From a virus, in the IMG/VR virus record IMGVR_UViG_3300005932_000017, positions 1 to 24,917 of that record: 24,917 nucleotides of DNA; one strand, 5' to 3'. The notes under the pieces were generated by a model. The model had not been told where the DNA came from. It ran no database searches and was given only the letters and a program-made list of their open reading frames with translations. Below, piece after piece: positions 1,317 through 13,316 of this stretch; the stretch's first letter is position 1, and each line of letters opens with the position of its first letter. A program made the position numbers and the translations under genes.

Positions 1317-3548
1317 ATGTGGTACACAACAAAAGAACTCGCTGATCTCCTGGGTGTATCTGAGCGGACCATCCAGAGGAGAGCAAAAAAGGGCGAGTGG
1401 GAAACCAGGATGGAACCTGGACATGGCGGGAATGGAGAGGTGTATAAGATTTTTTACGATCCAAAACTCAGCGACACGATCAACGACATATCAACGACAC
1501 ATCAACGACATGTCAACGACATGAACTCAGCGACACAAACTCAGCGACACTCAACGACACCTCCGGACACCATTGCGGACACTTTGGACAAACCTCTGTC
1601 ACACGTTCCCAAGCAGGGGCTTAGGAACGAGAACGTGGAGTTGGGGCTTAGGGAAAAGGGTGAAAGCGTAAAAGCGGCAGAACGGAAGATCGAGCTTTTT
1701 AGAACATCTCTCGACTGCACTCCGTACGCTGAGATGCCGGATGAATATCTCAGGGAAGCTTTTTTGAAGGGCAAAATGTGCGAAGAGTATCTCTCAAATA
1801 ACAACATCGAATCAAAAAAAGAACGCATGAAAATCCTACTCAAGCTGTTCAATCATAGAATGTACCTGTCAGAGCTCGAAGATATCACCGGCAGCATATC
1901 CGAGCGCACATTCAGGCGATGGCTCAAGAAATATATTGAAGCAGGGAGAGATTACCGGGTGCTGGTCCGTAAGTATATTCATCATTATCGCGGGCGCAGC
2001 ATACCGGAGGATATTCAAAATAGACTATTACGAGAATTAAGACACCCTAATAGAATTGCAATTGGAACTGCAATCCTGAACGTACAGGATCATTATAGGA
2101 TCGCAGGAAAAGAGATCGATGTGTCCGAGCGAACAATGCGCAGGTGGATCGATGATTGGAAGGTGCAGAATCCTCATCTTTGGACAATATCACGTGAAGG
2201 GCTCAAGGCGTATGACGAGAAAATCAACAAAACCATCTTGCGTGATCTGAACCTGCTTGAGGTAGGCGATGTGTGGGTTGCGGACGGGCACGATCTTTCA
2301 TTCGACATAATTGATCCCTATGATCAGAAACCCAGGCGTATGACGCTGATAGTGTGGTTCGATATGAGGTCCAGGATGCCGGTTGGCTGTGCGATCAATA
2401 GCACAGAGGATTCGCAGTGCATTGCGCTTGCCCTTCGTAATGCGATATTGTTCACCGGATACCGTCCGAAATTTGTGTATCTCGATAATGGCAAGGCATT
2501 CAAATCGAAGATATTCGTCTCAAAACCTGCTGATCACGATCTTGAAAATGAACTCGGCGGGTACTTCTACCGGCTGGGTATCTCACCTCACTTCGCTATT
2601 CCTTACAATGCAAAGGCAAAGATCGTTGAGAGATTTTTCCGCACAGTGCAGGACCAGTATGAGCGATTGGTGCCGAGTTTCCGCGGTCGAAATATAGAGG
2701 ACAAGCCGGCGACGTTATACAGGAATGAGAAGTGGATGCAGAAATTGTATGAGCGCAAGCCGCTCACAATGGATGAGTTCAAACTGACCTTTTCCTTCTG
2801 GGTGATGGAATTGTATGCGCAGCACGAACATGAAGGGCTTGGTGGACAGAAGCCGATCAATGTGTTACGCAGCGCTGAGATCGAGGACTATCTGAAAGTG
2901 GAACCGTCCGAACTGAACCATCTCATGTTGTGCACCAAGCGACGAAAAATATTAAATAATGGAGTGAAGCACAATAAATTATGGTACTGGGCTGAGGAAA
3001 TGGTCACGCACGTTGGACAGATCTGTATGATCAGGTATGACAATTTCAATATCAACTCAATCCTGGTGTATGACGAGAAGGACAATTACATCTGCCAGGC
3101 GCGTGTGAGGAAATTACAGCATCCGCTTGTACACCTCACCGGCGACATCGAAACAAAGCGTGACCTGGAGCGTGAGATCAAGCAGATCAGAAGGATTAAG
3201 AAGCAGCATAAAAAGGCAACAAAGGAGTTCATGCAGCAGGTCGAGGGAGATCAGCTCATACCCGACAAATCGGTAGGGGCGTTGTTCAATGATATACCAC
3301 TTATCAGCGAAGAGGGAGAAAGCGAGAAAGCGATAAAGCGGGAAAAGAAAGAAGCTAAATTAAGAGAATTTTTCAACAATCCGGCTTCGACAGACTACGC
3401 CGAGGCAAGCGAAAAAGACGAAAAAAATGCCGAGGAATTGAGGCGATTATTTACCACAGAGAACACAGAGAAAAAAGATGAAAAAGAAAATAAAACAAAC
3501 ATAGACCTGCATAAGCTCTATGAACATGTGGGACTGAAGGAAAAATGA
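1317..3548 (+). CDS. MuA-like DDE transposase (phage integrase/replication)
   Basis: This 743-residue protein joins phage ends to target DNA and drives replicative transposition. An N-terminal winged-helix MuA-type domain (WYTTKELADLLGVSERTIQR, residues 2-21, then GEWETR..G..G..Y) is followed by a variable linker (about 50-125). More HTH segments follow at about 175-210 and 260-290. The catalytic core has D323 (VADGHD), D390 (YLDNGKAF) and E438 (KAKIVERFFRT). The D-D spacing of 67 equals that of MuA (D269/D336). The C-terminal part (about 510-743) is basic and coiled, as expected for the MuB-contacting region. ATG 1317 follows a GTAGGTAGG purine run. The linker is encoded by short direct repeats and a palindromic element. 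The tail FTTENTEKKDEKENK is encoded by a CCACAGAGAACACAGAG-type dispersed repeat. MuB-like ATPase is next, as in Mu. Confidence 0.95.
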   Translation: MWYTTKELADLLGVSERTIQRRAKKGEWETRMEPGHGGNGEVYKIFYDPKLSDTINDISTTHQRHVNDMNSATQTQRHSTTPPDTIADTLDKPLSHVPKQGLRNENVELGLREKGESVKAAERKIELFRTSLDCTPYAEMPDEYLREAFLKGKMCEEYLSNNNIESKKERMKILLKLFNHRMYLSELEDITGSISERTFRRWLKKYIEAGRDYRVLVRKYIHHYRGRSIPEDIQNRLLRELRHPNRIAIGTAILNVQDHYRIAGKEIDVSERTMRRWIDDWKVQNPHLWTISREGLKAYDEKINKTILRDLNLLEVGDVWVADGHDLSFDIIDPYDQKPRRMTLIVWFDMRSRMPVGCAINSTEDSQCIALALRNAILFTGYRPKFVYLDNGKAFKSKIFVSKPADHDLENELGGYFYRLGISPHFAIPYNAKAKIVERFFRTVQDQYERLVPSFRGRNIEDKPATLYRNEKWMQKLYERKPLTMDEFKLTFSFWVMELYAQHEHEGLGGQKPINVLRSAEIEDYLKVEPSELNHLMLCTKRRKILNNGVKHNKLWYWAEEMVTHVGQICMIRYDNFNINSILVYDEKDNYICQARVRKLQHPLVHLTGDIETKRDLEREIKQIRRIKKQHKKATKEFMQQVEGDQLIPDKSVGALFNDIPLISEEGESEKAIKREKKEAKLREFFNNPASTDYAEASEKDEKNAEELRRLFTTENTEKKDEKENKTNIDLHKLYEHVGLKEK
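1465..1560 (+). repeat. Tandem 11-bp direct repeats inside the transposase linker
   Basis: There are four head-to-tail 11-bp units, (A/G)TCAACGACA(T/C), at 1479-1489, 1490-1500, 1501-1511 and 1512-1522. A partial fifth lies at 1551-1560. Three copies of AACTCAGCGACAC surround them at 1465-1477, 1524-1536 and 1538-1550. The 11-bp period is one helical turn and is not a multiple of three, so the encoded residues shift frame through the array. This looks like an iteron-type protein-binding array or a microsatellite expansion in a permissive linker. Confidence 0.75.
1585..1631. repeat. Internal transposase-site-like repeat plus REP-like palindrome within the transposase gene
   Basis: Bases 1585-1601 (TGGACAAACCTCTGTCA) are the reverse complement of the left-end motif with one base changed. 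Bases 1604-1631 form the palindrome CGTTCCCAAG-CAGGGG-CTTAGGAACGAG. Related palindromes occur at 10331-10356 and 10752-10778. Both are translated in frame as a linker segment (LDKPLSHVPKQGLRNENVE). Confidence 0.7.
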
Positions 3549-3579: not shown

Positions 3580-4317
3580 ATGAAAGAAAATGTAATGACT
3601 GAAATCAAGAATACGAGAGAAGCCCTGAATTGTATCCGCTACTTGCAGAATCGACCAAAATCTGAAATGGTAGGGCTGGGACTATTTTACGGCGATCCGG
3701 GTGTATCGAAAACCCGCTTCGCTTTCAAATTCGCAACGACATTCGACTTCATGTATATTCGCCTGGTAGCTGCCATGACAACAAAAGGATTTCTGCTGGA
3801 GATACATAGAGTGCTCAGGCATAAGTATTCACTCGGAGATGACGAACCGCGCGGGAACACATACAAAATATACTGCATTGTCAGGGATATTCTCGCAATT
3901 CATCCGGACGCAGTGATCTTCATAGATGAGATAGATTACGCTTTTGGCGACAAGAAGATGCTCGGCAGCATACGTGATCTCGCAGATCAGACAAGTGCGA
4001 TCGTGATAATGGTGGGCATGCAGAACGCCAAGCATGAGCTACTGAAATCGAACCCTCACTTCTTCGACAGGACCAATTATTTTGTGCGCTTCGATGTGCT
4101 ATCACTATCTGAGGTGCAGCGTGTGTGCAAGGACATATCCGACGTAGAGATCGACGCCGAAATCGTGCGTCAGATACAAAAGATGACCGGTGGAAACATC
4201 AGAAAAATCGTGAAGGCAATGTATGCGATAGAGACCATTGCACAGCATAATGAAGTGAGCCGGCTCGAATATAAGGATGTACCGGACGGATTACTACAAA
4301 TAGGAGTGCAGAAATGA
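3580..4317 (+). CDS. MuB-like AAA+ ATPase, transposition target selector
   Basis: This 245-residue ATPase has Walker A GDPGVSKT (38-45) and Walker B AVIFIDEID (D116, E117). A sensor-1-like stretch IVIMVGMQNAKHELL follows, then a C-terminal helical lid GGNIRKIVKAMYAIE. In the Mu/Tn7/IS21 families such proteins polymerise on target DNA and activate the transposase. It lies 31 bp after the transposase, with AGGAG ahead of ATG 3580. It is shorter than MuB (312 residues) because it lacks the N-terminal HTH domain and starts nearly at the ATPase. The second-to-last Walker A residue before Lys is Ser where Gly is usual. The gap before it contains CAAATTTCAAATTTCAAAT, a simple repeat. An IstB-type protein is the nearest alternative, but the partner gene and the phage context argue for MuB. 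Confidence 0.9.
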   Translation: MKENVMTEIKNTREALNCIRYLQNRPKSEMVGLGLFYGDPGVSKTRFAFKFATTFDFMYIRLVAAMTTKGFLLEIHRVLRHKYSLGDDEPRGNTYKIYCIVRDILAIHPDAVIFIDEIDYAFGDKKMLGSIRDLADQTSAIVIMVGMQNAKHELLKSNPHFFDRTNYFVRFDVLSLSEVQRVCKDISDVEIDAEIVRQIQKMTGGNIRKIVKAMYAIETIAQHNEVSRLEYKDVPDGLLQIGVQK

Positions 4318-10423: not shown

Positions 10424-10549
10424 CTTGACAGAAATTTATACCAAGAATTGGTTTGTAACCGAGGTATAAGCTGCAATCCATTATGCTGTGGAACGAACTT
10501 GCAAAACTTGAAACAGATTTAGTTTATTCCCTCTGTTTATTCAACCCTT
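10424..10549 (+). other. Short interval between two terminators; possible small-RNA unit
   Basis: It starts with TTGACA (10425-10430) and holds a dyad CCAA-GAA-TTGG (10441-10451) and a TATAAG box (10464-10469). The boxes are not spaced as one standard promoter. A plus-strand frame from ATG 10483 runs through the next terminator and the tRNA and is not believed. Flanking terminators make a short independent transcript possible, but nothing more can be shown. Confidence 0.3.
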
Positions 10550-10581
10550 GGGGTGTGCTAATCACGCACCCCGTTTTTTTT
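10550..10581 (+). terminator. Rho-independent terminator just upstream of the tRNA
   Basis: GGGGTGTG (10550-10557) pairs with CGCACCCC (10565-10572), with one G-T-like mismatch, and is followed by G and eight T (10574-10581). The tRNA starts only 11 bp later. Confidence 0.8.
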
Positions 10582-10591
10582 ATATCTCGGA

Positions 10592-10685
10592 GGAGAGGTA
10601 GGCATAATGGTGTTGCAGGAAGCTTATACCTTCTTGGGGAAGCTGATTACTTCCCTTGCGGGTTCGAATCCCGTCCTCTCCTCCA
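10592..10685 (+). tRNA. Class II tRNA with apparent UAU anticodon and encoded CCA
   Basis: The acceptor GGAGAGG (10592-10598) pairs perfectly with CCTCTCC (10675-10681), with discriminator T 10682 and CCA 10683-10685. The D-arm is a 3-bp stem GCA/TGC (10602-10604, 10614-10616) around TAATGGTGT with the conserved GG. The anticodon stem GGAAG/CTTCT (10618-10622, 10630-10634) encloses loop CTTATAC. This puts U33 at 10624 and the anticodon at 10625-10627 (UAU). A 23-nt variable region (10635-10657) folds as GGGAAG/CTTCCC. The T-arm is GCGGG-TTCGAAT-CCCGT. The long variable arm is the class II form of Ser, Leu and Tyr tRNAs, yet UAU reads the isoleucine codon AUA. U73 and three bases between the acceptor and D stems are also unusual. 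Confidence 0.8.
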
Positions 10686-10796: not shown

Positions 10797-13316
10797 CTAA
10801 CTTTTAAACGCCATTGTCCCTGTCCTATACATATCCGCACCTGCGCTGTCAATATACTTGATCGAGTTGAGAGCGCCTTTGCCGGTCTGTGCGACGAAGG
10901 TATTTCCACCCGCATATTTCTTCATATACGTGAACTGCTTATCAGCCGGAGAGAGCCATATCTCATTGGGAGATTTCAGTGTCTCTTCGATGCAGCTGAG
11001 GTGTTGGAAAAGATCCTGCATTTCATTCTGTGACATTGCAAAGCTATCCTTCTTTGCGAGTTTAAGCGGAAGCCCGGACGCATCAGAGATCACCCGATCC
11101 TGCACATAATTATTATACAGATCCGTGAGTTCCAGTTTGGTCATATCAACAGTTGCGAGTTTCTCAGGGAGTGTTGCTTTCCCGGCTTTGCTCCACTCAT
11201 TCAAACCAAGTGCAGCGTATGTTTTGGAGAGCACATTCTTATCAGCCAGCCATGAGCTCCAGATGTTATTGTCTGCGCCTGTATTCTTTGCCCATTCAGT
11301 TGGGAGATCGATCTGAGCAGGTTCTCTGCCATACATAGGATCGGACAGTGCTTCTTCTTCTGTAAGCTGTTCTACATCACACGCACAATTCCAATCATTT
11401 GGCGGATAGTAAGTGAGCCAGAATGGATCATCGATAGGAAGGACCGTTCCGTGCAGTTCTTTATGAGATATGCGCGAGTTCTCAAGGAACATGCAGATAT
11501 ATCTCAGGTAGGGAAAGATGTCTTTTTGATCCTGTGCCTGGTTCCACTTTGAAGCGAGATATGCGTTGTTGGTTGCGGTCGAGAAGTTGGTCCGTACATA
11601 GTATGGATTGTCCGGTTCAAAGCCCTTGACCTGCACATCTTTCTTCCAGTCTGCAAAGGTTTTACCTTGCAGCAGAGCGTTCGCAGCTTCGTCCTTGAGC
11701 ATAGAGAGTGTGTCCTCTGCATGAACGCCGGCGACAAGGAACGCCTCAGCCCTGAACGCATGGACAGCTTCGAGATTTGGCGATGTCCAGTCTATTTCAA
11801 AAACCTCGTTCCGGGGATGGATGTGCCGGTTTAAATTAGTTGTAGAATTTCTTCCCAGCATATAGGAGGTATGTATGAGGGCAGCGAGTCCTTCCCCGAA
11901 AGCGAGATGTATATTCAGAGGGTATGAAAGTTCGTTGTAGTCATCGAAGGATTTGAGCTTTTTAAGATAGTCTTTATAGCCCTGTGTTGCGCTCGATACG
12001 AGCCCGAGTTGTTTCTCTATTTCTACGGCAGCGACATTGGACAAACCTCTGTCAATTCCGAAAAATCTGTCACCCTGAGATACTCGAAGTGTGCCATACT
12101 TCGACTGGCTCAGCATGACAGAACGATTAAAATTTGCGGGATCTATGCCTCCTCTTGAGGGCGGTTGAACTATCTCTCCTTCTGGGCGAGGTCTGTTATA
12201 TTTATCATAAAAATAATCGAGATCGAGCGGGAGTCCTATCTGCTGTACGAGCTTGATGTCCATGTCCAATTCTGATTTATGATCCATAAAATTGGTCTCG
12301 ATCTGCACCTTTATTTTATCGTCATTAAAATTGATATGATTGAGACGGGTAAAGAAGTTCGATATAAATACTTCGAGGTCACGGGCGTCACCTGCAAGAA
12401 TGTCGCCGCGTACCAGGTTGGCAATTTTCGCCTTTGCTTCTGATCCGTATTTTTCCTGCTCAGTGACAGCGGTTTGTCCAAGAATCCTTTTAGTCGATTT
12501 GGTCTCGCAGAAATCACATAAAGACTTATACAGGTTGCCGGAAGCGGTCTTATTGACGAAGTCCACGAACTCGACCGTGACGTTCTCGGACACCATCATT
12601 GCAAGGGAAGTGCCTGCATTTTTCAGCATGTTCCAGAGCTGATCTTTCTCTGCTTTGGTAGCGCCGGACTTGTAGGTTCCCTTACGCATCGGCTTGCCGA
12701 ATATCTCTGTGAAATCCGCCCAGTTGGTGAGCGCAAATGCCTTGAATGTGTAGAACTTGAGGAGTGATCTGAGGATTGCTTTCTTGCGTAGGATCTTAAT
12801 GACCTTCAGTTCATCAAAGCCCATCTTCTTGTCATCGGCAAAAACCTGTAGATGTCTGTCCACGATACGGAGATCTAACTGCTTATAATCGAGGAGCTGC
12901 TTCGGGAACCATAGGGAATCGATCAGCTCATACTCTACTTGCCTGAACACGAACATCTTGAGTTTTGCTTCGATCAATGCTTCAACCAGATCTGGATAGA
13001 GAGAGTCTTTTACATCTTCAAAATATTCCGACTGTGCATCAGAAAGTTCCGTAGTGATCACCGGTGCGAGCGCTTTGAGCGCCTCTGTTCGGGTATCTAT
13101 ATCGGCATCGAGATTTGTATCCTCTGTCATGAGCCGGTTGTATAATGAGTTGATAGATTGGAGTTTTCCGTAGGAGTCCAGCTCTGTTATTGCACCGCGA
13201 ATTGTACTCGGCGTGATGCTCATTTCCCGGAAGAAGGTATCCTTCTCAGGTATCTTAACCACCGTGTCATTGACCGGTTGTTTCTTTTCTTTTTTCTTAA
13301 GATTAAATATGTTCAT
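10797..13316 (-). CDS. Portal (Mu gp29-like) fused to MuF head protein and a C-terminal nuclease-like toxin domain
   Basis: This 839-residue fusion begins with a DUF935 portal domain (about 20-400): ITPSTIRGAITELDSYGKLQ, TNWADFTEIFGKPMRKGTYK and LVRGDILAG. A linker follows (about 405-435), then a MuF/gp30 minor head domain (about 440-665) with YYVRTNFSTATNNAYLASKW, SRISHKELHGTVLPIDDPFW and YYPPNDWNCACDVEQL. The last 60 residues (NEIWLSPADKQFTYMKKYAG, then a GKGALNSIKYIDSAG segment) resemble the PBECR nuclease domains that often end MuF proteins. In Mu, gp29 and gp30 are separate. AAGGAG precedes ATG 13316. The linker is encoded by dispersed repeats (12038-12121), and another repeat lies at residue 280. 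The portal and MuF calls are firm; the nuclease call is moderate. Confidence 0.85.
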   Translation of the reverse strand: MNIFNLKKKEKKQPVNDTVVKIPEKDTFFREMSITPSTIRGAITELDSYGKLQSINSLYNRLMTEDTNLDADIDTRTEALKALAPVITTELSDAQSEYFEDVKDSLYPDLVEALIEAKLKMFVFRQVEYELIDSLWFPKQLLDYKQLDLRIVDRHLQVFADDKKMGFDELKVIKILRKKAILRSLLKFYTFKAFALTNWADFTEIFGKPMRKGTYKSGATKAEKDQLWNMLKNAGTSLAMMVSENVTVEFVDFVNKTASGNLYKSLCDFCETKSTKRILGQTAVTEQEKYGSEAKAKIANLVRGDILAGDARDLEVFISNFFTRLNHINFNDDKIKVQIETNFMDHKSELDMDIKLVQQIGLPLDLDYFYDKYNRPRPEGEIVQPPSRGGIDPANFNRSVMLSQSKYGTLRVSQGDRFFGIDRGLSNVAAVEIEKQLGLVSSATQGYKDYLKKLKSFDDYNELSYPLNIHLAFGEGLAALIHTSYMLGRNSTTNLNRHIHPRNEVFEIDWTSPNLEAVHAFRAEAFLVAGVHAEDTLSMLKDEAANALLQGKTFADWKKDVQVKGFEPDNPYYVRTNFSTATNNAYLASKWNQAQDQKDIFPYLRYICMFLENSRISHKELHGTVLPIDDPFWLTYYPPNDWNCACDVEQLTEEEALSDPMYGREPAQIDLPTEWAKNTGADNNIWSSWLADKNVLSKTYAALGLNEWSKAGKATLPEKLATVDMTKLELTDLYNNYVQDRVISDASGLPLKLAKKDSFAMSQNEMQDLFQHLSCIEETLKSPNEIWLSPADKQFTYMKKYAGGNTFVAQTGKGALNSIKYIDSAGADMYRTGTMAFKS
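12038..12121. repeat. Dispersed repeats encoding the portal-MuF linker
   Basis: TGGACAAACCTCTGTCA (12038-12054) is a copy of the left-end motif in minus orientation. Bases 12067-12121 form a palindromic element with paired TGTCA/TGACA, CTGAG/CTCAG and TCGAAGT/ACTTCGA arms, a well-known style of intergenic repeat in environmental bacteria. Both lie between portal and MuF domains and keep the frame open. Confidence 0.7.
12464..12480 (+). repeat. Copy of the left-end TGACAGCGGTTTGTCCA motif in the portal gene
   Basis: It is a 17-bp exact match to the tandem copies at 460-476 and 481-497. On the coding strand it gives GQTAVTE near portal residue 280. Confidence 0.85.

Follow-up and report, generated by a model that had tools for sequence, protein, structure and literature searches.

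In most bacteria, the AUA codon is decoded as isoleucine by tRNA-Ile2(CAU), in which C34 is converted to lysidine by TilS; a tRNA with unmodified C34 is not charged with isoleucine (PMC11938285). The UAU anticodon is described as missing in bacteria and phages (PMC8007984), because U34 fails to separate AUA from AUG (PMC11938285) and is poorly accepted by the standard IleRS. UAU is rare among bacteria. A tRNA-Ile(UAU) is described in Mycoplasma mobile, lactobacilli, bifidobacteria and others (PMC4014445, PMC8450103, PMC9976931), and in M. mobile the U34-containing tRNA-Ile depended on an IleRS altered by mutations (PMC4014445). Two further systems involve the variable arm. The allo-tRNAs (Mukai 2017), in the form in which they are reviewed, possess a long variable arm, with UAU among the commonest anticodons, and the UAU examples possibly form five-stem junctions, one of them being encoded beside a transposon gene (PMC7609411). 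In an engineered system (Mukai 2020), a pseudo-anticodon in the variable arm raised charging by HisRS variants, with a modest effect (PMC7590224).

Here we describe a phage tRNA that combines several of these features. The window analyzed, that is, the entire stretch of DNA, is a 24.9-kb viral record (24,917 nt) with Mu-type genes (Table 1). ARAGORN predicts exactly one tRNA in the window, with the anticodon TAT, and Rfam RF00005 matches positions 10592-10682 with 46.4 bits (gathering score 29, E 3.8e-7). The predicted cloverleaf consists of a 7-bp acceptor stem, a 3-nt acceptor-D (8-9) junction, TAG, a 3-bp D stem, a 6-bp anticodon stem with the loop CUUAUAC, a 7-bp variable stem with the 7-nt loop CUGAUUA and a 5-bp T stem, followed by U73 and an encoded CCA. 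Free folding yields the same arms (-35.7 kcal/mol, z = -2.1), and neither analysis produced a fold in which a Ser or Leu triplet would take the anticodon position. The initial annotation of this locus as a class II tRNA with a UAU anticodon, the expected reader of AUA, with U73 and a 3-nt acceptor-D junction, is thus borne out by ARAGORN and Rfam, and its remark that bacteria usually read AUA with a lysidine-modified CAU tRNA agrees with the literature (PMC11938285). The gene is real, though divergent. What the initial annotation overlooked is the GAU triplet in the 7-nt loop of the long arm, which occupies the position where an anticodon would sit, in a loop resembling that of an isoleucine anticodon arm.

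Table 1 Features of the window and long-arm tRNAs of other phages
Feature	Position	Strand	Evidence or remarks
Class II tRNA, anticodon UAU, CCA encoded	10592..10685	+	ARAGORN; Rfam RF00005, 46.4 bits; free folding
3-nt junction (TAG) and D arm, 3-bp stem GCA/UGC	10599..10616	+	ARAGORN cloverleaf
Anticodon arm GGAAG-CUUAUAC-CUUCU	10618..10634	+	UAU at 10625-10627; ARAGORN cloverleaf
Variable arm GGGGAAG-CUGAUUA-CUUCCCU	10636..10656	+	Putative pseudo-anticodon GAU at 10645-10647; ARAGORN cloverleaf
Discriminator U73 and encoded CCA	10682..10685	+	ARAGORN cloverleaf
Terminator-like hairpin directly 5' of the tRNA	10549..10573	+	Consensus scan alone
Mu transposase C-terminal domain (ORF)	1317-3548		Pfam-type domain search
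AAA ATPase	3580-4317
Mu portal and Mu F-like fusion ORF	10797-13316	-
Long-variable-arm phage tRNAs, Gly/Gln/Thr anticodons	L101:1203-1289; L069:10084-10167; L007:2344-2428	- for L069
Long-variable-arm tRNA-Glu	in L050

In the portal ORF near the tRNA, the Mu portal and Mu F-like head domains are joined to a nuclease-like tail of the PBECR2 type, which scores 27.0 bits, marginally under the Pfam cut-off of 27.1. A near relative, L003, identified through the portal protein, lacks a tRNA at the corresponding place, so that the window tRNA is an accessory gene; another relative by portal protein, L002, breaks off within the portal gene and was uninformative as a comparison. A protein scan of genome contigs revealed no relatives of the window portal, and blastn of the tRNA against phage records yielded no more than short matches, which spanned roughly a quarter of the tRNA.

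The relatives that the initial annotation suggested seeking among class II tRNAs were recovered by pattern scans. The main scan required an ATGGT D loop together with a UAU anticodon and a T arm, constrained the variable arm in length alone, and matched 79 viral loci and 16 contigs of bacterial or archaeal genomes. Two added scans, for U73 and for CUGAUWA, both selected for GAU in the variable arm; many matches of the U73 scan were discarded as unrelated tRNAs or chance. Together, the scans yielded 99 unique class II tRNA(UAU) genes, nearly all from phages, a count that, being obtained by pattern sampling, does not represent population frequency. In 93 of these (137 loci), the variable arm ends in a 7-nt loop centred on GAU or, rarely, GAC; L009, L022, L055 and L090 are exceptions. 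The family is widespread in phages and apparently has gone unnoticed so far. Acinetobacter phage vB_AbaS_qsb1, Vibrio phage henriette 12B8 and the Vibrio Thalassavirus phages encode such tRNAs, annotated plainly as tRNA-Ile in all three cases, and many others are located within ordinary phage tRNA arrays. Among the bacterial contigs with a GAU arm are those of Marinobacter, Microbulbifer, Pseudoxanthomonas, Xanthomonas, Acidobacteria and an Oscillospiraceae MAG. The commonest anticodon loop in the family is CUUAUAC (32/70), the D arms are mostly of the class I type, with a 4-bp stem, and the discriminator is A73 in 82 members and U73 in 11 of the 93.

Several members display further peculiarities. 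An unusual G1-U72 pair at the acceptor end is present in 34 of 70 (for example, L006, L018 and L102), and L183, L186, L199, L220 and L224 have very short or unusual D arms next to an intact GAU arm. For L093:5600-5695, ARAGORN gives an 8-base anticodon loop (ATAA) along with a GAU-type variable arm; we treated this tRNA in the alternative register, with a 7-nt loop containing UAU.

Several lines of evidence indicate that the variable arm resembles the anticodon arm of tRNA-Ile(GAU). In the scan that imposed no condition on the arm sequence, a 7-nt variable loop with GA(U/C) is present in 57 of the 61 class II UAU tRNAs compared with none of the 101 class II controls from the same loci (Ser, Leu, Tyr and other tRNAs), a contrast for which p = 2e-39 is only nominal because the sequences are related. 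In a 16-row alignment, the variable stem is 100% paired and all four of its pairs change on both sides; the stem therefore varies and the GAU triplet stays. Covariation extends to all five arms in this alignment, and the whole structure outperforms every shuffled and slid control. Among 48 less redundant members, the variable loop, numbered as an anticodon loop, has G34 and A35 in all 48 and U36 in 46, along with a pyrimidine at 32, mostly A at 33 and 38, and a free position 37; these loops are nearer to the anticodon loops of tRNA-Ile(GAU), of which CUGAUAA is the commonest in the records fetched, than to those of any other isotype compared. Furthermore, 78 of the 93 family members have C-G as the third pair of the variable stem, the equivalent of 29-41, vs 85 of 681 other tRNAs, and the true anticodon stem of the family shows no such bias (15/93). 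The determinants recognized by IleRS include C29-G41, the anticodon and the discriminator (PMC9976931).

Within the scans made, the arm is also linked to the UAU anticodon. An AGAU loop combined with the same D arm was found together with UAU at 53 loci, compared with none in which position 36 was not U and none with VAU anticodons, in scans that fixed the D arm and covered these three anticodon sets. As a counter-test, we searched phages for UAU tRNAs of class I, which lack such an arm, and found 23 loci; thus, the GAU arm is not strictly required. The link to UAU and the C-G bias at 29-41 bear on a different role for the GAU arm, in which it would act as a decoy or sink to occupy a host anticodon nuclease or toxin that attacks tRNA-Ile(GAU), or would shield the tRNA against a tRNA-targeting defence: neither observation is predicted by such a role, and no nuclease of this specificity was identified in the present analysis. 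Although phage tRNAs do counter tRNA-cutting defences (PMC11555353, PMC13096335) and the arm resembles the loop that such nucleases attack, we find this explanation highly doubtful.

Other phage tRNAs, whose anticodons are those of Gly, Gln, Thr and Glu, also have long variable arms, of different sequence (Table 1), and conversion to class II may be a more general trait of phage tRNAs.

SerRS and LeuRS largely disregard the anticodon, and a long arm could confer Ser or Leu identity on the tRNA, in which case these synthetases would charge it and Ser or Leu would be inserted at AUA, through recoding or mistranslation. This possibility has to be weighed against the discriminator: G73, which is typical of serine tRNAs, is present in none of the 93 family members. 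The class I type of most D arms points in the same direction, as do the Ser and Leu tRNAs of the same phages, in which the variable loops are mostly 3-5 nt long and never of the GAU type. The fixed GAU would be left unexplained, and recoding would be costly, given that AUA accounts for 28% of the Ile codons in the likely ORFs of the window. The class II shape itself is compatible with Ser or Leu identity, as are the GGAGAGG acceptor strand and the one-base spacer before the T stem of the window tRNA, which look serine-like, and the reviewed account relays a proposal that allo-tRNAs bearing UAU or another non-Ser anticodon are Ser isoacceptors (PMC7609411). On balance, we consider Ser or Leu insertion improbable. 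Isoleucine appears to be the likeliest amino acid, and reassignment of AUA would therefore be unnecessary. The unusual tRNA that the initial annotation envisaged, whether it recodes AUA or acts as a decoy or regulator, is not favoured as a one-off case either. The gene is consistent with a broad family of phage tRNAs in which all five arms covary.

The window tRNA itself is an outlier of this family. It has the UAU anticodon and a variable-arm hairpin with a 7-nt loop NNGA(U/C)NN that define the family, and 18 other unique members share its CUGAUUA loop, most of them from the scan that selected for that loop. U73, which is neither the A73 of tRNA-Ile nor the G73 of tRNA-Ser, is common to 10 other members of the 93, the 29-41 equivalent is A-U in place of the usual, not universal, C-G, and the G4-C69 pair and the 3-nt junction set this tRNA further apart from the usual pattern. 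A covariance model of the family was tried as a separator and rejected: it failed to set divergent members apart from ordinary tRNAs, and gave the window tRNA 53.2 bits, inside the range of the latter, so that the window tRNA is assigned to the family by its UAU anticodon and its CUUAUAC and CUGAUUA loops. These deviations, together with the 3-bp D stem, are what would be expected if the window copy were a decayed or non-translational tRNA-like gene within a possibly functional family. The terminator-like hairpin directly upstream, the lack of a convincing promoter in a consensus scan, the empty site in L003 and the allo-tRNA(UAU) pseudogenes described, in the reviewed account, near a transposon gene (PMC7609411) are compatible with decay. 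Against it stand the intact stems, the encoded CCA and the Rfam score, as well as the other family members that combine U73 with intact stems, and we place decay on the unlikely side.

The best explanation, in our assessment evenly poised between right and wrong, is that the product of the window gene is a phage tRNA-Ile(UAU), which decodes AUA as isoleucine and uses the variable arm as a pseudo-anticodon for the host IleRS. Most bacterial IleRS would accept G34 or lysidine-34, and U34 only poorly, and the phage presumably has no power to change the host enzyme; such a tRNA would therefore divide two jobs between two arms. The true anticodon arm would pair with AUA on the ribosome, and the variable arm, as a copy of the tRNA-Ile(GAU) anticodon arm, would recruit or satisfy the anticodon-binding domain of IleRS. 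With the charging signal carried on the variable arm, lysidine would not be needed, and decoding of AUA would be independent of TilS. The Mu-like phage of the window would carry a divergent copy that has retained both arms. The 20 phage records with a GAU-arm tRNA that were searched contain no IleRS and no TilS above the cut-off; TilS is found above the cut-off in 6 of the 8 bacterial genomes that hold such a tRNA. More tentatively, and judging from sequence, this could be a natural two-anticodon tRNA, in which the synthetase reads the GAU hairpin and the ribosome reads UAU, such that charging and decoding identities are separated and AUA is freed from lysidine without a change in IleRS; a five-way junction might even let the two arms swap places. 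Several observations argue against a pseudo-anticodon: in the variable loop, position 37 lacks a conserved A and position 33 is an A in most members; U73, G4-C69 and A-U at 29-41 of the window tRNA are all unfavourable for IleRS; and the effect of the engineered precedent was modest and depended on an anticodon-binding domain added to the synthetase.

The putative phage system differs from each of the known ones. Like the phage tRNA, tRNA-Ile2(CAU) decodes AUA as Ile; it is a class I tRNA, with C34 modified by TilS, whereas the phage family has an encoded U34 and a second anticodon-like arm. The tRNA-Ile(UAU) of M. mobile, lactobacilli and bifidobacteria are class I as well. They are similar, as far as their descriptions go, in the use of UAU for AUA without lysidine, but in M. 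mobile it is the IleRS that has changed, whereas in the phage family the arm is in the tRNA itself and the hosts checked mostly possess TilS. In the engineered tRNAs, too, the variable arm imitates an anticodon arm to help a synthetase, but these are designed, histidine-specific and used with a synthetase that has an added domain; the phage family is natural and of the isoleucine type. The allo-tRNAs have 8/4 or 9/3 acceptor and T stems, in contrast to the 7/5 arrangement of the window tRNA and its family, a distinction drawn from the reviewed description only. In the open-licence literature, we found no report of a natural pseudo-anticodon in a variable arm; novelty is claimed in this sense, with absence unproven, and overlap with the UAU examples of Mukai 2017 is possible.

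If the proposed mechanism is correct, phages would have a widespread solution to AUA decoding that moves the synthetase signal to a second arm, a natural counterpart of a device hitherto known only from engineering. Charging identity would be separated from decoding identity within one tRNA, a design that could be suggested for orthogonal tRNAs, and phages would read AUA independently of the lysidine of their hosts.
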